A stretch of 64,000 bases of DNA, from assembly GCA_002163115.1 (NCBI GenBank), contig MAAI01000066.1:1-64000 (forward strand). The letters are read 5' to 3'. The DNA is from Methylophaga sp. 41_12_T18. GTDB taxonomy: Bacteria > Pseudomonadota > Gammaproteobacteria > Nitrosococcales > Methylophagaceae. A model generated the notes under the pieces. The model ran no database searches, was not told where the DNA came from, and worked only from the letters and a program-made list of their open reading frames with translations. Position numbers and translations under genes: made by a program. This document shows, piece after piece, positions 12,745-23,228 of this stretch (position 1 is its first letter; each line of letters begins with the position of its first letter).

Positions 12745-14484
12745 ATGGAACTGAGAAAACGAATTCGTATTGGTGACTTATTAATTGAAAATAAAGTCAT
12801 CTCCGAAACCCAATTAACATCCGCCTTAACTGAGCAGAAAAAAACCCGTCGTAAACTCGGTAAAACCTTAATTGATCTTGGTTTTATTAAAGAATCCCAA
12901 TTACTCACGCTACTATCAAAACAACTCAAAATCCCCTACCTTGAGTTAAAACAATATCCGATTGACCGTGAGGTTTTAAAAAAATTACCTGAAATACATG
13001 CTCGTCGCTTCAGAGCTATTGCTTTAAAAGAAGAACATGGCCGAATTCTAGTTGGTATGGCAGATCCAACGGATATTTATGCCTACGATGAACTTATTAA
13101 GGTTTTAAAATCACCCGTTGACCTAGCAGCTATCAGTGAAAGTGACTTATTACACCAACTTGAAACCGGCTATCGTAAAACCGATGAAATTGACTCATTA
13201 GCAGAAGTTTTAGATGTTCAGTTATCTGAGACAGACTTTGATCTTACCGCCTTAACAGCATCAACCTCCAGTGCTGATGCACCGGTAGTAAAGTTATTAC
13301 AAGCCATCTTTGAAGATGCGGTTGGTATCAAAGCTTCAGATATTCATATTGAACCCGACAGTACTGTATTACGGATTCGCCAACGTATTGATGGTGTATT
13401 ACAAGAACAAATCGTTGATGAAACAAGAATTGCGACAGCGTTAACATCACGCTTGAAACTAATGGCTGGCTTAAATATTTCTGAAAAGCGGCTACCGCAA
13501 GATGGTCGTTTTAATATTAAAGTGAAAAATAAAAGCATCGATGTCCGCCTATCAACCATGCCTATGGTGCACGGTGAGTCGGTTGTTATGCGTTTACTTG
13601 ACCATTCACAAGGTTTATTAAACTTTGCCAAACTCGGCATCCCAGCCAATATTCTGCAACCACTACAAAGTCTGATCAAAAAACCGCATGGTTTAATCCT
13701 CGTAACCGGTCCAACGGGGAGTGGTAAAACAACAACCTTGTATGCAGCACTTAATGAAATCAACTCTCCGGCCAGTAAGATAATCACAGCTGAAGATCCA
13801 GTTGAATATCAGTTACCACGCATCAACCAGGTTCAAATTCATGAAAAAATAGGCTTAACATTTCCAACTGTTTTACGGACAGCGCTACGCCAAGATCCTG
13901 ATGTTATTCTCATCGGTGAAATGCGCGATCAAGAAACCGTTGAAATTGGTTTACGTGCTGCAATGACCGGCCATTTAGTATTTTCAACACTACATACTAA
14001 TAATGCGATCAGTACCATCAGTCGTTTGATTGATATGGGAGCTGAACCTTTCTTGGTTGCCTCTTCCTTACAAGCGGTATTGGCACAACGTTTAGTGCGG
14101 CGCCTATGTCCTGACTGTAAAACAACGCGCGACTTAGACCAAGCCGAGACATTATTGTTAGAACAAATCAACGGCCCACAAAGTAGTTGGCCAGAGTTCT
14201 ACCATCATCAAGGTTGTAACCAATGTCATAACACCGGTTATAAAGGCCGTATCGGTATTTATGAACTGTTGGTAATTACACCTGAATTAGCCACCAGCTT
14301 ACATCACAATGATAGTGTGCAATTTTCAGCACTGGCCAAACAACAACCTGGCTTTATCAGCTTAACCGAAAATGCACTGGATCTAGCCAAACAAGGCATT
14401 ACCACCCTCGATGAAGTATTACGTATTGCCGGCGATCTTGATGTAAAAGAGCCCATATCAGCAAACAACAGCATTGCTGAATAA
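12745..14484 (+). CDS. mshE: MshE, MSHA pilus extension ATPase with c-di-GMP-type N-terminus
   Basis: GspE/PilB-type hexameric ATPase driving pilus assembly at the inner membrane; 579 residues. The N-terminus has two MshEN-type motifs: RIGDLLIENKVISETQL from about residue 6 and KLGKTLIDLGFIKESQL from about residue 34. In Vibrio MshE this pair binds c-di-GMP. The ATPase core has Walker A GPTGSGKTT (322-330), the Asp box EDPVEYQ, Walker B GEMRDQET and the His box STLHTNNA. A zinc site follows (C455, C458, C491, C494). It is the first gene of the pilus locus and ends 2 bases before mshG. Confidence 0.93.
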   Translation: MELRKRIRIGDLLIENKVISETQLTSALTEQKKTRRKLGKTLIDLGFIKESQLLTLLSKQLKIPYLELKQYPIDREVLKKLPEIHARRFRAIALKEEHGRILVGMADPTDIYAYDELIKVLKSPVDLAAISESDLLHQLETGYRKTDEIDSLAEVLDVQLSETDFDLTALTASTSSADAPVVKLLQAIFEDAVGIKASDIHIEPDSTVLRIRQRIDGVLQEQIVDETRIATALTSRLKLMAGLNISEKRLPQDGRFNIKVKNKSIDVRLSTMPMVHGESVVMRLLDHSQGLLNFAKLGIPANILQPLQSLIKKPHGLILVTGPTGSGKTTTLYAALNEINSPASKIITAEDPVEYQLPRINQVQIHEKIGLTFPTVLRTALRQDPDVILIGEMRDQETVEIGLRAAMTGHLVFSTLHTNNAISTISRLIDMGAEPFLVASSLQAVLAQRLVRRLCPDCKTTRDLDQAETLLLEQINGPQSSWPEFYHHQGCNQCHNTGYKGRIGIYELLVITPELATSLHHNDSVQFSALAKQQPGFISLTENALDLAKQGITTLDEVLRIAGDLDVKEPISANNSIAE

Positions 14485-14486
14485 TC

Positions 14487-15725
14487 ATGGCAATCTACGA
14501 ATACAAAGGTCGTAATCAACAAGGTGAAGCTGTTAATGGTCAGCTTGAAGCGGCTTCCAGCAGTGAGACGGCCAGCCACCTGATCAATACCGGCATCACG
14601 CCGATCGATATTCACGAACTTGAAGTCAAACAAGCTGACATTGTAGAAAACCTGACTGAATCATTATTCAATCGCCCACCGGATATCAATGATTTATTAA
14701 TGTTTAGCCGTCAAATGGCTACCTTGTTAAAAGCAGGTATCTCGATTCTACCTGCATTACGTGGCTTAAAATCCCATATGACACACAAAGGCATGGCTAA
14801 TGCTATAGAAAGCATCGCTAATGACTTAGAAAGTGGTCATCCCTTAGCTGGTGCCATGCAACAGCATCCACGTATTTTTTCTCCGTTATTTGCCAGCATG
14901 GTCAATATTGGTGAAAACACCGGTCAACTAGACCAAGCCTTTTTACAAATTCATCAATATTTAGAAATTGATAAAGAAACCAGCGACCGAATTAAAGCCG
15001 CAACTCGTTACCCAGTGTTTGTATTTGTCGCCATGGCCATTGCTGTCGGCATTATTAATTTATTTGTTATCCCAGCCTTTGCCAATGTCTTTGCTAGTTT
15101 TGGTAGTGACTTGCCTTGGGCAACACAAATATTAATGACCACCTCTGAATTCAGCATCAACTATTGGCACTATATTGTTATTGCCCTAGTCATCGGTACT
15201 TTTTCGACTAAGAACTACCTCAAAACAGAAAAAGGCCAATATCAATGGGGCCGTTATAAGTTAAAGATTCCACTGGTTGGCAGCATTATCGAACGAGCGA
15301 CCTTATCACGGTTTTCTCGTGCTTTTTCAATGGCTTTTCGAGCCGGTGTACCTATCACCCAAACCCTAGTCATTGTTAGTAAAGCGGTAGATAATAGTTT
15401 TATTGCAAGCCGAATTTTAGCCATGCGGGATGGCTTAGAACATGGTGAGTCACTCACTCAAACGGCCATTGCCAGCAACCTATTTACACCGTTAGTATTA
15501 CAGATGATCTCAGTGGGTGAAGATACCGGTGCTGTTGATGACATGCTCGATGAAGTAGCTAATTTTTATGAGCGTGAAGTCGACTACGATACCAAGCAAT
15601 TAAGTAGTGCAATTGAGCCTATAATGATTGCTGTGATTGGCGTGATTGGCGTGATGGTGTTAATCTTAGCACTAGGTGTGTTCTTACCAATGTGGGATCT
15701 CGCTGGAGCCGCATTTGGTCGCTAG
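14487..15725 (+). CDS. mshG: MshG, type IV pilus inner-membrane platform protein
   Basis: GspF/PilC-family integral membrane protein, 412 residues, which seats the extension ATPase. Two repeated T2SSF cytoplasmic domains are visible (FSRQMATLLKAGISILPALRGL near 72, and FSRAFSMAFRAGVPITQTL near 275). Membrane helices lie at about 172-195, 220-240 and 385-408 (IAVIGVIGVMVLILALGVFLPM). The partner is mshE, immediately upstream. The spacing of 2 bases argues for coupled expression. Confidence 0.92.
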   Translation: MAIYEYKGRNQQGEAVNGQLEAASSSETASHLINTGITPIDIHELEVKQADIVENLTESLFNRPPDINDLLMFSRQMATLLKAGISILPALRGLKSHMTHKGMANAIESIANDLESGHPLAGAMQQHPRIFSPLFASMVNIGENTGQLDQAFLQIHQYLEIDKETSDRIKAATRYPVFVFVAMAIAVGIINLFVIPAFANVFASFGSDLPWATQILMTTSEFSINYWHYIVIALVIGTFSTKNYLKTEKGQYQWGRYKLKIPLVGSIIERATLSRFSRAFSMAFRAGVPITQTLVIVSKAVDNSFIASRILAMRDGLEHGESLTQTAIASNLFTPLVLQMISVGEDTGAVDDMLDEVANFYEREVDYDTKQLSSAIEPIMIAVIGVIGVMVLILALGVFLPMWDLAGAAFGR

Positions 15726-15772
15726 ATTGAATTGTTAAGCCAAAAGTTAAAGATTTTTTTAAGGATTTAAGA

Positions 15773-16198
15773 ATGAAAAAGCAACAAGGTTTTACGCTTA
15801 TTGAATTAGTGATGGTTATTGTTATTTTAGGTATTCTGGCTGCAACAGCATTACCTAAATTTGCAAACCTACAGGCAGATGCTCGCTACGCTTCTTTACA
15901 AGCCGCACAAGGGGCCTTTAAATCAGCCGCTTCTATTGCCCATGCTAAATGGTTAATTGATAGTACTACTGTAACAATAGAAGGCGTTACCGTTGCTTAT
16001 AACAGCATTGGCTACCCAACCGAAGCTACAATTGCTGATATTGCTGGCATCTCTTCAACCGACTACGATTACACCACAACATCTGGCGTATTACATGTTG
16101 ATGGCAAAGCATCATGTGCATTTACCTACGATGCAAATGGCGGTGCAGGTGCCTTAAGCCCTAGCTATGGAACTCTACCAGCAAGAACAAGCTGTTAA
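15773..16198 (+). CDS. mshA: MshA-like major type IV pilin
   Basis: A 141-residue prepilin. The leader MKKQQG is cut before [17 protein letters not shown] (type IV N-methyl-Phe signal, with Glu5 of the mature protein), followed by [14 protein letters not shown] as in MSHA pilins. Two late cysteines ([10 protein letters not shown]... and the last residue) probably form the C-terminal disulfide loop. It has its own spaced start region and is followed by a strong terminator, as expected for an abundant subunit. An MshB-type minor pilin is the alternative. Confidence 0.85.
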
Positions 16199-16216
16199 TC
16201 AGTTAAAAATTTTTAT

Positions 16217-16245
16217 AAAAAGCCTCGATAATTCGAGGCTTTTTA
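16217..16245 (+). terminator. Terminator after the major pilin gene
   Basis: AGCCTCGA (16221-16228), loop TAAT, TCGAGGCT (16233-16240), flanked by an A-run and TTTTA. It can reduce read-through into the minor pilin genes. Confidence 0.9.
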
Positions 16246-16282
16246 TTTATAAGTCATCGATGATAGAGGACTTATAACCGGT

Positions 16283-16762
16283 ATGAATAAACGAATATTC
16301 CACATTCCAAATAATAATGGCTTCACACTCACCGAGTTAATCATGGTGTTAGTGCTGATATCTATTGTCGCTACCATCGCCCTTCCTCGCTTTTTTGGCC
16401 GAGATAGTTTTGATCAACGGGCGTTATTTGACGATACCCTCAATGCAGTTCGATATAGTCAGAAACTGGCTGTGGCTACCGGTTGTAAAATACGAATAAC
16501 TTTCGACGGTAATCAATTCGAACTTCTACATGAAAATAGCTGTGGCAATGATAGCTTTAGCACCGAACTCGCGGTCAAACATCCTGCCGATCCAGATCAA
16601 GCATATACGGGTTCCCAAACCAATGTAGTCATCACAGCCGCTAATAGCAGTACGACTTTTAATGCTCTAGGCCAAGCCGAAGCCAATAACACCGTTATAA
16701 TTGGCAATCACCAATTATCCATTATTGCTGAAACAGGCTTTAGCTATGACAGTAGCTCATAA
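16283..16762 (+). CDS. mshC: MshC-like minor prepilin
   Basis: A 159-residue prepilin. A long leader ending NNNG precedes FTLTELIMVLVLISIVATIALPRFFGRDSF, the mature N-terminal helix with Glu5. The segment FDDTLNAVRYSQKLAVATGCKIRI resembles MshC/FimT-type minor pilins. It is placed after the terminator of the major pilin and before the MshD-like gene, in the classic order A-C-D-O-P-Q. Two cysteines in the globular part may be paired. Confidence 0.83.
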   Translation: MNKRIFHIPNNNGFTLTELIMVLVLISIVATIALPRFFGRDSFDQRALFDDTLNAVRYSQKLAVATGCKIRITFDGNQFELLHENSCGNDSFSTELAVKHPADPDQAYTGSQTNVVITAANSSTTFNALGQAEANNTVIIGNHQLSIIAETGFSYDSSS

Positions 16763-16763
16763 T

Positions 16764-17201
16764 ATGAAACAACTCGGCGCTACCTTAGTTGAACTAATCA
16801 TTACCATAGTCATCATCAGTATCGCGTTAACGGGCATATTAAGTGTGGTTAGCTTATCGTCAAGACACACGGCTGATCCAATGGTTCAACAACAAGCAGT
16901 TGCCATTGCTGAATCTTATTTAGAAGAAATTTTATTACTCCCTATCACCGATCCGGACAGTATTGATGAAGGTAGTGAAAATCGCTCATTATTTGATAAT
17001 GTTGAAGATTATGATAACTGGAGTGATTCTGGAGCAGTTGATCAACATGGCAATGCAATAAACGGCCTTGAAGATTATCAAGTGAATGTCACTATCAACG
17101 ATGCAACTATTTCTGGCGTCACCATGAAAGCCGTTATGGTATCAGTGAGCAGATCTGGAACAGATACCATTCGTTTAACCGGTTATCGAGCAAACTATTA
17201 A
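16764..17201 (+). CDS. mshD: MshD-like minor prepilin
   Basis: ATG at 16764 (one base after the mshC stop) is chosen over upstream in-frame starts because it gives a proper short leader, MKQLG, before ATLVELIITIVIISIALTGIL. The product has 145 residues, with SYLEEILLLPITDPD typical of MshD/GspI-type minor pilins. Position 1 of the mature protein is Ala rather than Phe, which prepilin peptidases tolerate. Its TAA overlaps the next ATG (TAATG). Confidence 0.8.
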   Translation: MKQLGATLVELIITIVIISIALTGILSVVSLSSRHTADPMVQQQAVAIAESYLEEILLLPITDPDSIDEGSENRSLFDNVEDYDNWSDSGAVDQHGNAINGLEDYQVNVTINDATISGVTMKAVMVSVSRSGTDTIRLTGYRANY

Positions 17202-18034
17202 TGAGTAGATATCAGACTCAACGTGGCTTCACACTCATTGAAATGATCATTGTAATTGTTATCGGTGGCATTTTAGCTGCGATGACAACGTCTATTCTGA
17301 CTTTGCCTATCAATTCTTATATTGATAGTACCCGACGCGCAACATTAACCGATGCTGCTGAATCAGCGTTACGACGTATGCAACGTGATATTCGCCGCGC
17401 CTTACCAAATAGCATACGTGTTTCTTCAGATGGTCAATCATTGGAGCTATTACACATCGTTGATGGAGGTCGTTACCGAGCACAGTATTATACTGATGCC
17501 AGTGGTGCAATTAGTGGTGATACTTTAGATTTCACTGCCACTGATACCAGTTTTGATGTACTGGGTTCGCTGCAAAACTTTGCTCAAGTCACAACTGGAG
17601 AAGATCGAGTCGTTGTCTACCCTGTCGATGCATCAGGAGCTAATGCTTATGTTGGCAGTAATTCATCTGTTGTCAGCAATGCCTCTACAGTAGACTCTCT
17701 TGCGTTCACTGCTAAGCAATTTCCTTTAGCCTCACCACAACAACGTTTTTTTATTATTGATACACCCATTACATATCGTTGCGATACGGATCCAAGCGCA
17801 AGAAAAGACCGTACGTTAGTTCGATATCAAGACTATGATATTCAAGCAACACAACCAACACCTCCCAGCGAAGGTGCTGCTATTCAAGCCAATTACCTCG
17901 CTAGCTGTCAGTTTAGTTACAATTCAGGTTCAAGTAGCCGTGCAGGTTTAGTCACTATTGAACTGAGTTTGACAGACGATGCGAATGAATCTGTACGTTT
18001 AGTCCATCAAGTGCATGTGGACAATCAGCCATGA
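17201..18034 (+). CDS. mshO: MshO-like minor prepilin
   Basis: A 277-residue prepilin. The leader MSRYQTQRG is followed by FTLIEMIIVIVIGGILAAM. RATLTDAAESALRRMQRDIRRALPNSIRV is a hallmark of MshO (PilW/GspJ-like). The long C-terminal part is beta-rich, and a cysteine pair (YRCDTD and ASCQF) may be bonded. It overlaps mshD by 1 base and mshP by 4 bases, so the four minor-subunit genes form one translational unit. Confidence 0.84.
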   Translation: MSRYQTQRGFTLIEMIIVIVIGGILAAMTTSILTLPINSYIDSTRRATLTDAAESALRRMQRDIRRALPNSIRVSSDGQSLELLHIVDGGRYRAQYYTDASGAISGDTLDFTATDTSFDVLGSLQNFAQVTTGEDRVVVYPVDASGANAYVGSNSSVVSNASTVDSLAFTAKQFPLASPQQRFFIIDTPITYRCDTDPSARKDRTLVRYQDYDIQATQPTPPSEGAAIQANYLASCQFSYNSGSSSRAGLVTIELSLTDDANESVRLVHQVHVDNQP

Positions 18035-18423
18035 TTTATCAAAAAGGCATAACCTTAATCGGTGCGATCTTTGTTTTGGTTATTGTTAGCCTGTTAGGCC
18101 AGTACTTACTCAATGTCACCAGCACACAACGTCAGACCAGTTTATTAACCTTGCAAAGTGCACGGGCCTACCAAGCTGCTAGTGCAGGCATAGAATGGGG
18201 AGTAGAGCGGATTATTAATGGTTCTGGAAGTTGCAATGCTAGTACAGAACTATCTCCAGCTATCAGTAACTTCACCACAACGATTACATGCAACTCGTTA
18301 GGTGAATATGACGAAAACAGCATCATAACTAAAGTTTACAAAGTCACCTCAACAAGTGAATATGGTAACTATGGTCAGCTAGACTATGTTTCACGACAAT
18401 TAGAGACGATTGTTCATGATTAA
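18031..18423 (+). CDS. mshP: MshP-like minor pilus biogenesis protein
   Basis: A 130-residue protein with a short leader (MIYQKG) and hydrophobic helix ITLIGAIFVLVIVSLLGQYLL. SARAYQAASAGIEWGVERI is the PilX/MshP/GspK-type segment after the helix. Position 5 lacks the canonical Glu (ITLIG), as is usual for GspK/MshP-type pseudopilins. It starts 4 bases inside mshO and is followed by the large adhesin gene. Confidence 0.8.
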   Translation: MIYQKGITLIGAIFVLVIVSLLGQYLLNVTSTQRQTSLLTLQSARAYQAASAGIEWGVERIINGSGSCNASTELSPAISNFTTTITCNSLGEYDENSIITKVYKVTSTSEYGNYGQLDYVSRQLETIVHD

Positions 18424-18497
18424 TGTGCTTGCCATCACTGACTTTTTAAGCGGTAACACTATTGTGAAAATCACTTTCCAGTATCAGACCTAATAAT

Positions 18498-21400
18498 ATG
18501 AAATTTTTCTGGTTCTTACTTCTTAGCACTATATTCTTTAATGAGCTTGCCATAGCTGATAGCTGTGTAACCTTTCGAGATGAGTTTTCTTCTGAAAGTT
18601 ACAGTCGAAATGATGGAACATCCAACTGGGCAACTAGCTGGATAGAAGTAAGTGACAATAATGCCGCTTCAGATGGCAATATTGAAATATCTAACAACCG
18701 TTTACAACTTGAAGGGGACGGCTCTGGCTCTTCCGATCTCGGTGCTCCCTATATTTACCGTGAAGCTAACCTTTCAACTTATAGTAGTGCCACTTTAACA
18801 TTTGATTATTCGGAAAATGGTAACTGGGGAAATAACGATGATATTGAAATTCACGTTTCAAATGATGGTGGTTCCAACTGGAGTTTAGTTCATACTTTCA
18901 GCAATGATCAGGGCAACTCTACACAGCAGTTTTCCCAAGATATCTCAGCATATATATCTAATAACTCCCGCATAGCCTTTGTTGAAAAGGCTAGCAGTAA
19001 CAGTCAAACATTCTTTTTCGATAATGTACAGATTGAAGCTTGTTCCTCATCAAATCCAGTAGCTCAGCTCTTGTTACACATGGATGAAGAAAGCTGGGAT
19101 GGAACAGCTGATGAAGTTATCGATAGTTCAGGCAATAACAACAATGGCACCAGTTTCAATTCTATAACCACAAAAAATACTTCTCCGGCAATTTCAGGTG
19201 ATCCAGGAACATGCCGTTACGCAGAATTTGATGGTGTAGATGACTATATTTCTTCATCCAACTTATATAACCAATTGAAAGGCACAGCCTCAATGAGTTT
19301 TTGGGTGAGAACGACTCAAACTGGTAATGACATTGCATGGCAGTCTGTCGGTATCACTGGTGTTGAACAGCTTAATGGAGAAGATGATATTTTTTGGGGC
19401 TGGTTAGATGCGGCAGGACATATTGGTATTTCTGTTGGTAATGACAGTACGTCAAAGTCATCCACAGCTATCAACGATGGTAACTTCCATCATATAGTGC
19501 TCACAAGGAGTGCAGTTAATGGCGCCTATAAAATCTATGTTGATGGCGTTCTAGAAAAGTCAGGCACTATCGGGACCGGCGTTATAGGAAACAGTTTCTC
19601 TAACATCGGTCGAATTGAAGATACCGGAGGAACACCGAACTATTTCAATGGTGACCTTGATGAGCTACAGATTTTTAATACTGTCATTGATGATGCAACG
19701 GTACTATCTCTTATGGCAGAAACTCAGCCGTGCTCTGATGCAACACCGCAACTAATATTACATTTTGATGAAGAAAGTTGGGATGAAACTCTAGGTGAAG
19801 TAATAGATAGTTCATCTAACAACAATAACGCTACAGGAATCAACGGAGTGATTGCCATTGATTCATCACCCGCTATTATTGGAGATCCAGGTACCTGTGG
19901 TTATGCTAGTTTTGATGGTGTTAACGATTACATCGCACTTGATAACTTTCAAAATTTAACAGGCAGTTTTTCATTCACTGCTTGGGTTCAATCGACCAAA
20001 CACTCGCGAGGTCGAATCATAGCTGACGATGATACTAGTGGATTTGCACTTAGTTTAAATGAACCTAGTCCTGGATATTTACGGTTTTATTCACGTTCAG
20101 TCACTCCTATATCTTTAGATACCTCAAGTGTAGTCTTGCCACAAAATGATGGCTGGTATTTTGTTTCAATTGTTCATGATGCGGGTTCAAAGCGTCGATT
20201 TATTTACGTTGATGGAGTATTAGTTGCCAGTGATGCAAGTGCATATAGTGGAACATGGCCATCAGACTCTGGAGTCACAACGATAGGTAGTGAATCAAAC
20301 GCTTCTCTAGAAGGCGTTAATTTTGCTCCATTCAAAGGTAATATCGACGAAGTACAAATATTCACAGAAGCATTAACTCAAGCACAAATTCAATCATTGA
20401 TGACCGAGACTCATGCTTGTACAAATGAAAGCACTCCAGATCCTGCAGCATGTAATTTTGTATCTGGTGACTATAGTTTATATGGTGCAACATCAATCAA
20501 TTTGGCACATAACATCACAGTAAATGGTCAAACAGTAAGTTCTGGCAATTACTCTCCCGATGTTGCTATTGATAATACAGGCAATATCACGACCAATGCC
20601 AATCCAAGTTTACCTGCACTCAACCCAAGCAGTTTTCCAACAAATACGGCAACAAATGACGAAATATCCAATTCTGATATTTCTATTAACTCAAGTTCAG
20701 AAGTGTTTTATGACAAAATTCAAACTAAAAATAAATCATCGATAACGTTTACAGGTGGTGGCCCCTTCCATATTGATGAGTTAAATACTCAAAAAGAAGA
20801 GTCTGAAATCAACTTTGCAGCGGGTACGTATTACATTAGGAAGCTAAGTCTAAGCAAAGAAAAAACCAACATCAATATCACCAGCTCCCCCGTCGTCATT
20901 CACATTGGCTCATCATTTGATATCGATAAAGAAGATATCAATATCAATAAAGATGGAAATGTTGATGACTTTATTGTTTACCTACATTCTGGCGCGACAT
21001 TCAGAGCTCAAAAAGAAAACGTAGATTTCACCGGTCTTTTATATGGACCTGATGCTGGAGGTATTCGATTCGATAAGGAAAACATAGACTTTCATGGATT
21101 AATGATCACCGGTAACGGTAGTATTGAAGTCAAAAAAGAAGACTTCTCTCTCACCTTTACTGAGGCTGATAAAACAGCAGTCAATGCTATTTTAGGCACT
21201 TGTGACGCTGCCCTCGATCACTTTGAACTTTCCTACTCCGCTAATGGTTTAACCTGTCTGCCTTCAGCCATCACACTCAAAGCTTGTGCCAATGCGGATT
21301 GCAGCTCACTTTATACAGAAAATGTCGATGTCACCTTAGATCCTGCTACTGGCTGGGAAAATAACCCTGTCACCATTTCATCGGGTTCTGCATCGTTAGA

Positions 21401-23228
21401 GTTGCAACATACCACTGTTGAAGATGTCGTTGTTGATATCACAAATAGTACAGTCAACCCTACTGGTGCTTTACAGTGCTTTGATGGTGACAATGCCGAT
21501 GCAACTTGTACTATTAATTTTGCCGAAACAGGATTCATCTTTGATGTGCCCACTTTAACAGCTTGTAAAACATCAGCTGACGTGACAATTCAAGCTGTCA
21601 GAAAAAGTAATATCACCGACCAATGTGTCGGAGCATTAACCGGTACACAATCAGTTAACTTTTGGTCTACCTATTTACTGCCATCAACTGGAACTAAATC
21701 AGTCGCCATCTCAGGCAATACTATAGATAAATCCTCCCCTGGTAGTAGTGTTGATCTTGAATTTGATATTAATGGCGAAGCCTCTTTCACTGTGCAATAT
21801 GATGATGCAGGACAGCTACAATTAGATGCAAGCCATACTCTGACCACAACTGACGGTAACTTAACCATCGCTGGCAATGACACTTTTGTTAGTAAACCTG
21901 TCGCACTCGCTATTTACAGCACTGACAATAGTGCTGACTGTAGTGCAGGCGATGCTAGCTGCAGCATATTTAAAAAAGCAGGTGAATCATTTGATCTAGA
22001 AATCAAAGCCGCTTGCTGGGTCGATAATGATGACAGTGACTACAGTAACAACCCTGTGACAGCTAATTTTGAATTAGCAAGTATTGGCCTAGATCATTCT
22101 TTGATTGCACCTTCAGGTGGAAACTTAGGTTCGCTTTCCAATGCAAGTGTAAACTTTACGACTTCTGATAATGGGGTTCATACCGTTAGTCAAAGTGTTT
22201 CCGAAGTGGGCGTATTTACCTTTGATCTTAACCCGCCTATTTATTTTGGCGAATCTATTAATACGGCTGCCAGTGACAATATCGGTCGTTTTTATCCTGA
22301 CCACTTTGAAGTCACTGCTACCGATGATGGTGCATTTTCTGATTATGCCTGTGGCACATTTAGCTATAGTGGCCAGAGCTTTAATTACACAACTAACCCA
22401 ACACTGACTATCAGTGCTTATAACGCTGCTGATACAGCCGTGATAACTCAGAACTACACCGGTGACTTTGTAAAACTGGTTGCCAGTAACTTTCGGTTTA
22501 CGCAACCAACAACAGATGCATTACAAACCGGTGTAGATGGTAATTTAGTACAGCTAGAAATGTCCGTTTCTCCTGCCTCATTAACTGATAACGCTGATGG
22601 CAGCTTGAGCTTTGCATTTGGTAATGATAGCTACACATATCGTCATATTAGTAATAGTAAAATCGCACCATTTAGCAATGCAGTTAAGCTTGAGTTCACT
22701 GCAATTAATGATGATGATGGCGTGCAAACACAAGACTTACCGATCTCTTTACAGCCTAGTGGCGAACCAATACGCTTTGGTCGATTCTCAATCACTAATG
22801 CCCACGGCTCAGAGTTAATACCGTTGCCTGTACAAATTCAGACTGAGTACTTTAACGGTGCAAACTGGCAAAGCAACAGTGCAGATCAATGTACGACTTT
22901 AAATTTGGCCAGTCATTTGCAATTAGCTAATACCGATACTTCTGCAGGTAGTTGGCAGTCAGGAACAACGACGATGACGGTTAATAATGGTAGCAGTACG
23001 GCAAGTTTGAGCGCTTTAAACTCAGGTCAAGCCACCCTCACCTTCTCAGCTCCCGGCGAAGACAATCAAAGTTATATTGATATTCGTAGCCAGCTTTCAG
23101 CGAACTATGATTGGCTACTAGGTGATTATGATAATGATGGTGGCTACGATGATGAAGCCACAGCAAGAGCCAGTTTTGGTTTATTCAAAGGCTCGGATAA
23201 TATTATTTTCCGTCGGGAAGTGTATTAA
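18498..23228 (+). CDS. mshQ: MshQ-like giant pilus-associated adhesin (LamG x2, beta-solenoid, C-terminal MshQ domain)
   Basis: 1576 residues, secreted. The signal peptide is about 1-20 (MKFFWFLLLSTIFF...AIADSC). An N-terminal beta-sandwich (about 20-185) is followed by two tandem LamG/concanavalin-like domains (about 188-411 and 416-641), which begin almost identically (LLHMDEESWDGT, ILHFDEESWDET). A solenoid-like region at about 740-890 carries a recurring Lys-Glu motif (see findings). From about 900 the protein matches the MshQ/DUF6701 type, with RFGRFSITNAHGSELIPLPV near 1425. Its place after mshP supports a pilus-tip or surface adhesin. The last 26 bases overlap the convergent tmcA. Confidence 0.87.
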   Translation: MKFFWFLLLSTIFFNELAIADSCVTFRDEFSSESYSRNDGTSNWATSWIEVSDNNAASDGNIEISNNRLQLEGDGSGSSDLGAPYIYREANLSTYSSATLTFDYSENGNWGNNDDIEIHVSNDGGSNWSLVHTFSNDQGNSTQQFSQDISAYISNNSRIAFVEKASSNSQTFFFDNVQIEACSSSNPVAQLLLHMDEESWDGTADEVIDSSGNNNNGTSFNSITTKNTSPAISGDPGTCRYAEFDGVDDYISSSNLYNQLKGTASMSFWVRTTQTGNDIAWQSVGITGVEQLNGEDDIFWGWLDAAGHIGISVGNDSTSKSSTAINDGNFHHIVLTRSAVNGAYKIYVDGVLEKSGTIGTGVIGNSFSNIGRIEDTGGTPNYFNGDLDELQIFNTVIDDATVLSLMAETQPCSDATPQLILHFDEESWDETLGEVIDSSSNNNNATGINGVIAIDSSPAIIGDPGTCGYASFDGVNDYIALDNFQNLTGSFSFTAWVQSTKHSRGRIIADDDTSGFALSLNEPSPGYLRFYSRSVTPISLDTSSVVLPQNDGWYFVSIVHDAGSKRRFIYVDGVLVASDASAYSGTWPSDSGVTTIGSESNASLEGVNFAPFKGNIDEVQIFTEALTQAQIQSLMTETHACTNESTPDPAACNFVSGDYSLYGATSINLAHNITVNGQTVSSGNYSPDVAIDNTGNITTNANPSLPALNPSSFPTNTATNDEISNSDISINSSSEVFYDKIQTKNKSSITFTGGGPFHIDELNTQKEESEINFAAGTYYIRKLSLSKEKTNINITSSPVVIHIGSSFDIDKEDININKDGNVDDFIVYLHSGATFRAQKENVDFTGLLYGPDAGGIRFDKENIDFHGLMITGNGSIEVKKEDFSLTFTEADKTAVNAILGTCDAALDHFELSYSANGLTCLPSAITLKACANADCSSLYTENVDVTLDPATGWENNPVTISSGSASLELQHTTVEDVVVDITNSTVNPTGALQCFDGDNADATCTINFAETGFIFDVPTLTACKTSADVTIQAVRKSNITDQCVGALTGTQSVNFWSTYLLPSTGTKSVAISGNTIDKSSPGSSVDLEFDINGEASFTVQYDDAGQLQLDASHTLTTTDGNLTIAGNDTFVSKPVALAIYSTDNSADCSAGDASCSIFKKAGESFDLEIKAACWVDNDDSDYSNNPVTANFELASIGLDHSLIAPSGGNLGSLSNASVNFTTSDNGVHTVSQSVSEVGVFTFDLNPPIYFGESINTAASDNIGRFYPDHFEVTATDDGAFSDYACGTFSYSGQSFNYTTNPTLTISAYNAADTAVITQNYTGDFVKLVASNFRFTQPTTDALQTGVDGNLVQLEMSVSPASLTDNADGSLSFAFGNDSYTYRHISNSKIAPFSNAVKLEFTAINDDDGVQTQDLPISLQPSGEPIRFGRFSITNAHGSELIPLPVQIQTEYFNGANWQSNSADQCTTLNLASHLQLANTDTSAGSWQSGTTTMTVNNGSSTASLSALNSGQATLTFSAPGEDNQSYIDIRSQLSANYDWLLGDYDNDGGYDDEATARASFGLFKGSDNIIFRREVY

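Follow-up and report, generated by a model that had tools for sequence, protein, structure and literature searches.

A Lys-Glu turn motif in a predicted β-solenoid module of a putative MshQ-like pilus adhesin

Our question was what structure underlies a lysine-led motif that recurs seven times within about 140 residues of a putative adhesin from Methylophaga sp. 41_12_T18, and why nearly the same residue pair returns at each place. The gene lies on contig MAAI01000066.1, and the window that we analyzed is its positions 1 to 64,000 (64,000 nucleotides). The original prediction, made from this DNA alone, read the motif as fitting a Lys-Glu ladder along a right-handed β-helix that could stand as a rigid stalk between a pair of LamG domains and an MshQ domain.

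An MshQ-like gene with a repeated Lys-Glu motif

The Pfam domains of the adhesin confirm the proposed location, with the motif between two Laminin_G_3 stretches and a DUF6701 (MshQ-type) part (Table 1). The region itself matches DUF7305 (PF23981) with 31.4 bits in the whole protein and 40.7 bits as an excised module (the curated cut-off is 27); an NCBIfam scan of the module gave no match at E ≤ 1. DUF6701 scores 456.9 bits, and the genes upstream encode an ATPase (MshEN + T2SSE), a platform protein with T2SSF, four pilin-like proteins with N_methyl and one weak PilX_N-like protein. This combination indicates an MshQ-like protein that closes an msh-like cluster, and by family membership it would be a pilus-located, putative adhesin. 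In a study on Vibrio cholerae, MshQ is termed a putative MSHA adhesin, and cells without mshQ have less surface MSHA while retraction persists (PMC7096442). Our protein resembles MshQ of the MSHA pilus in its DUF6701 part and in the ATPase, platform and pilin-like genes upstream, but it differs in the DUF7305 module: a protein search found DUF7305 in 3 of the 57 genomes of the host's family and DUF6701 in 18, and the module is thus no common feature of the family. The closest named relative is a protein of Methylophaga sp. 42_25_T18 (L009, 63% identity). Residues 22–1576 are acidic (64 Lys and Arg versus 197 Asp and Glu), and 13 of the 37 lysines fall within residues 735–890.

Table 1. Features of the adhesin gene and its surroundings, in window coordinates
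Feature	Residues	Coordinates	Strand	Evidence
Upstream msh-like genes		12745..18423	+	Pfam domains of ORFs
MshQ-like adhesin gene	1576 aa	18498..23228	+	ORF; Pfam Laminin_G_3 (2 stretches), DUF7305, DUF6701
Second Laminin_G_3 domain (better of two stretches)	473–632	19914..20393	+	Pfam
DUF7305 module as modeled	about 654–899	20457..21194	+	Pfam, AlphaFold2 model
N-terminal cap coil region	659–699	20472..20594	+	Model strands; fold matches start at model residue 4; cap-coil letters
Main solenoid (predicted)	721–886	20658..21155	+	Model strands, block pLDDT 82–93
Turn pair 1, KN	744–745	20727..20732	+	Sequence, model
Pfam DUF7305 match proper	750–872	20745..21113	+	Pfam
Turn pair 2, KE	766–767	20793..20798	+	Sequence, model
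Turn pair 3, KE	787–788	20856..20861	+	Sequence, model
Turn pair 4, KE	811–812	20928..20933	+	Sequence, model
Turn pair 5, KE	839–840	21012..21017	+	Sequence, model
Turn pair 6, KE	860–861	21075..21080	+	Sequence, model
Turn pair 7, KE	880–881	21135..21140	+	Sequence, model
DUF6701 (MshQ-type C-terminal part)	991–1575	21468..23222	+	Pfam

Among the ORFs read, the msh-like cluster (12745–23228) has no secretin of its own; the two secretins detected in the genome sit on other contigs, in a PilMNOPQ-like cluster (C73) and a Flp/Tad-like cluster (C53). A second T2SSF-like protein (34% identity) is encoded on contig C85. A sister genome carries two DUF6701 genes ∼1.6 kb apart (G001:C2:235842-240937), of which the DUF7305 search matched only one.

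All seven lysines lie exactly where they had been placed (residues 744, 766, 787, 811, 839, 860, and 880 of ORF 18498–23228), with spacings of 22, 21, 24, 28, 21, and 20 residues. Lys is followed by Glu in six cases and by Asn in one (Lys-744). The motif as originally written, K-(E/N)-x-x-x-(I/V)-(N/D/T)-(F/I)-like, is only approximate, because the distance from the pair to the next strand varies. All six KE dipeptides of the adhesin fall in residues 736–890. The recurrence exceeds what chance would give: when these residues were shuffled, six KE were reached in 4 of 100,000 trials, although six or more copies of some dipeptide arose in 95 of 5,000, and all gaps fell between 20 and 28 in 3 of 200,000 random seven-place sets.

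The coils might simply be recent copies, made by duplication or gene conversion, that inherited KE from a common unit, and the nearly uniform codons (AAA GAA in five of six pairs, AAG GAA in one) would fit such an origin. Against it, Tandem Repeats Finder detected no protein-scale DNA array in the motif stretch, only a 15-base run with a 6-base unit at 20935, and DNA identity between coils outside the KE codons is 0.34, close to the 0.29 (S.D. 0.07) of random gene windows. The absence of a coil-scale array and the near-background identity make recent duplication unlikely, and the core positions of the coils show no sameness either (see below). On these three grounds we rejected recent coil duplication, which we regard as highly improbable.

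Predicted fold of the module and its relation to ice-binding proteins

We modeled residues 651–930 with AlphaFold2 using three sequences. The model is a β-solenoid (mean pLDDT 78.3; averages of 82–93 for the ten-residue blocks in model residues 71–240 and a low confidence region, 58, at 51–60), and all seven Lys motifs are predicted to fall in inter-strand loops, at equivalent turns of successive coils. The only helix of at least four residues is C-terminal (model residues 239–249). A relative with no KE at its turns, L010, served as control; its model has a mean pLDDT of 80.8 and a strand list similar to that of the adhesin module. When the module was compared with solved structures, the top 25 of 50 rows were titled ice-binding or antifreeze (Z 13.2–14.6, r.m.s.d. 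2.7–4.1, 165–178 residues aligned), followed by a Caldicellulosiruptor adhesin domain at Z 11.4; for L010 the top 22 of 50 rows are of the ice-binding kind (Z 13.5–14.5, next row 11.3). Solved ice-binding proteins of this type are right-handed. Tapirin and other surface β-solenoids appear at Z 8–11, but these rows (4wa0, 6n2b, 6n2c, 5nxk) cover the main solenoid from about model residue 64 and not the cap coil. Foldseek alone gave no match to the module at E ≤ 0.001 (tapirins ranked first, the best at E 0.038, and listed TM-scores were ≤ 0.34 by query), and a PDB sequence search returned just two matches with the module, at E 1.8, and none with a 9-row profile. The structure prediction proposed as a check of the motif thus gave a solenoid with the motifs at repeated turns, as expected at the outset. 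The earlier interpretation was sound as to solenoid and place; it missed DUF7305, the likeness to ice-binding proteins, and the lineage-specific choice of KE described below.

AlphaFold2 is reported to over-predict solenoids when random sequences are repeated perfectly (PMC11795689), and we therefore sought sequence evidence for the fold. An alignment of 35 DUF7305 rows matched one of 10 DUF3494 (ice-binding) rows with a probability of 91.6% (P 8.2e-7, score 49.4). The reversed profile scored 15.0, 200 column shuffles reached at most 18.6, and 200 shuffles of 20-column blocks reached at most 35.7, with probabilities of up to 54.6%. Without the adhesin, L003, and L004, the remaining 32 rows scored 50.1; a 9-row DUF7305 profile gave a probability of only 8.1%. 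The pectate-lyase-like family Beta_helix (PF13229), represented by 15 members (16 taken from 20 loci, one removed for stops), gave an hhalign probability of 0.1 and a score of 10.1 against the DUF7305 profile. Pfam DUF7305 matched the adhesin and all nine rows of alignment A3 and touched two of the 10 ice-binding proteins, at E 0.019 in the better case. Conversely, among eight DUF7305-like pieces scanned, L039 touched Ice_binding at E 1.5e-4, under the curated cut-off; Ice_binding (PF11999) was found neither in the adhesin at E ≤ 1 nor in the host genome. Another piece, from L066, touches pAdhesive_15 (“putative ice-binding-like adhesive domain”) at E 7e-4, also under the curated cut-off. The predicted fold and the profile match together support a DUF3494-like fold for the module.

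The fold likeness extends over model residues 4–244, and the last four spacings in the adhesin (24, 28, 21, and 20) resemble coils 2 to 6 of AnpIBP, which have 23, 28, 21, 18, and 18 residues (PMC7277481). The same paper describes a first coil that packs on the last and a long A-face α-helix; this helix has no counterpart in the strand and helix list of the adhesin model. To assess the cap coil, we compared turn letters in 14 DUF7305 proteins in which it could be read by eye. They agree best with those of coil 7 (0.45 versus a permutation null of 0.16, reached in 0 of 5000 permutations; 0.21–0.33 for coils 1–6), which suggests that the N-terminal cap coil probably packs on the last rung. DUF3494 proteins bind ice with a Thr/Ser-rich B-face. 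In the adhesin, by a hand count, nine of the 18 outward letters that adjoin the turns in coils 2–7 are charged, and six are Thr, Ser, Ala, or Gly. Such a composition does not suggest ice binding for the module.

Turn pairs tend to be alike within single DUF7305 proteins

At the threshold used, at least 45 domain matches from at least 38 ORFs were collected, and 29 rows with six or more readable coils each entered a permutation test; they come from 28 ORFs, L058 contributing two. We read as turn letters those after the last inward hydrophobic residue of each coil, with anchors set on the adhesin and L003; the automatic table reads coil 1 of the adhesin as KNK, one place off the KN found by eye, and thereby lowers the adhesin's score. 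At the two offsets that hold KE in the adhesin, agreement between coils of one protein is 0.368 and 0.315, compared with 0.148 and 0.159 after letters were exchanged between proteins. Core offsets show no within-protein sameness in the same 29 rows (z −1.2 and 0.5). The signal holds when the adhesin and L003 are dropped (z 12.8 and 7.8), in the 21 rows outside profile building (z 11.8 and 7.1), and in the 12 rows of DUF6701 proteins (z 8.6 and 6.7). With the seven most uniform rows removed it falls to z 6.5 and 1.7, and a minority of rows thus carries most of the effect.

Could turn preferences and local composition produce this sameness, with no ladder of contacts? Gly and Asn favor turns (PMC12081914). 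The outward offsets −3, −1, and +1 are also alike within proteins, if more weakly (z 5.9–6.6 in the 29 rows), and in 22 of the 29 rows the commonest pair occupies at most three coils. Yet the sameness at the KE offsets stands out against swaps of letters between matching coils of different proteins (z 16.1 and 11.8, 0 of 1000) and against shuffles of outward and loop letters inside each protein (z 16.1 and 12.9), so that composition does not account for it; Lys-Glu is not known as a favored turn pair. We consider it quite improbable that turn preference and composition are the whole cause.

In the other seven rows the commonest pair stands on four or more coils, and its identity varies from protein to protein. 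NN occupies all seven coils in L044 and six of seven in L042 and L040, and KE six of seven in the adhesin and L003. L066, a phylum-level relative, has GT on four and GS on three of the seven coils read, and L039 has NA on four. The most uniform row, L044, matches our own profile at E 3.0e-29 but gives no Pfam DUF7305 match at E ≤ 0.1. Lys stands at the first offset on five of seven coils in L020, and partly charged turns therefore exist elsewhere. The adhesin module is a DUF7305 domain above the curated cut-off that differs from its relatives (NN, GT/GS, NA, or mixed letters) in the KE at the turn, and KE is, to judge from these alignments, specific to its lineage, as other members place different letters at this turn. 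Both the domain and the predicted fold belong to known kinds; the novelty is that in part of DUF7305 one turn pair is chosen per protein, in ionic form in the adhesin.

A proposed ladder of Lys-Glu turns

We favor, with moderate confidence, a DUF3494-like solenoid with a cap coil and a stacked Lys-Glu seam that would tie its rungs, the module being a likely spacer in an MSH-type pilus adhesin. Residues of about 654–899 would form a β-solenoid of some seven rungs plus the N-terminal cap coil. With Lys-Glu at one turn of every rung, stacking of the pairs should produce a charged surface seam, and salt bridges to neighboring rungs would most likely hold the rungs together, taking over the job of an asparagine ladder in the NN relatives. 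At 4.8 Å per rung the module would be compact, roughly 3 nm long, and would keep the Laminin_G_3 domains apart from the DUF6701 part; it may itself be an adhesive or binding surface.

Parallels are found in two reports. In the designed β-helix SaBeH, GNN turns promote asparagine ladders, and asparagine and lysine ladders run along the axis (PMC12081914); in the HET-s solenoid, Lys and Glu are aligned as pairs between rungs (PMC9201691). SaBeH is a left-handed design and HET-s a fungal amyloid, so these are likenesses in principle and not of ancestry. Against the proposed ladder, like charges would be stacked above each other in the seam, and turn sameness does not drop with the distance between coils, which argues against contact between neighbors only.

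The charged seam could instead serve chiefly to bind a charged polymer, a surface, or ions, in which case ligand selection would have set the pairs and pinning of the rungs would be secondary. Its family makes the protein a putative adhesin, as V. cholerae MshQ is called (PMC7096442), and a protein described as collagen binding contains a predicted ice-binding-like domain (PMC9210967). The mean share of charged turn letters is 0.44 in 12 rows with a detected DUF6701 versus 0.125 in 20 rows without (p 0.004, with relatedness ignored; these 32 rows needed less flanking sequence, and as DUF6701 was sought within the fetched flanks, rows counted as lacking it may be cut off). However, other DUF7305 proteins are equally uniform with the neutral pairs NN or GT/GS, which suggests a structural reason for the uniformity. 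A seam set mainly by a ligand appears unlikely to us, and we retain the rung-tying ladder as the preferred reading.

Relatives differ in how they treat the turn set. Of the adhesin's 14 turn letters and 140 other residues, L009 shares 13 and 79, whereas L010 shares none and 67. Because the coils of some relatives bear a different pair, the seam may be replaced as a whole. The chances appear about even that DUF7305 solenoids carry an exchangeable ladder, with one pair per protein (amide NN, small or hydroxyl GT/GS, or ionic KE, the version of the adhesin), and that it evolves as a single set, being replaced between relatives with the core preserved. A search of the open-access literature for DUF7305, DUF6701, or MshQ together with β-helix found no publication, and no open-access paper found on side-chain ladders names DUF7305 in its title. 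If the ladder does exchange as a set, DUF7305 offers a natural series (NN, GT/GS, KE, and mixed) on one scaffold, which would serve to measure the contribution of a ladder to solenoid stability and its response to salt. Through its link to DUF3494, this domain of unknown function, which occurs in pilus-associated proteins, acquires a likely fold and a clue to its role.

Two proteins from the same order as the host, L007 and L008, contain DUF7305 with GN-rich turns, and the N terminus of L008 has, by eye, a pilin-like hydrophobic stretch of PilX type, which suggests that DUF7305 recurs in type IV pilus components. In the DUF7305 rows, the agreement between coils at the outward offset −1 seems to rise and fall in turn with coil distance, being 0.15, 0.25, 0.12, 0.23, 0.11, and 0.28 for distances of 1 to 6.
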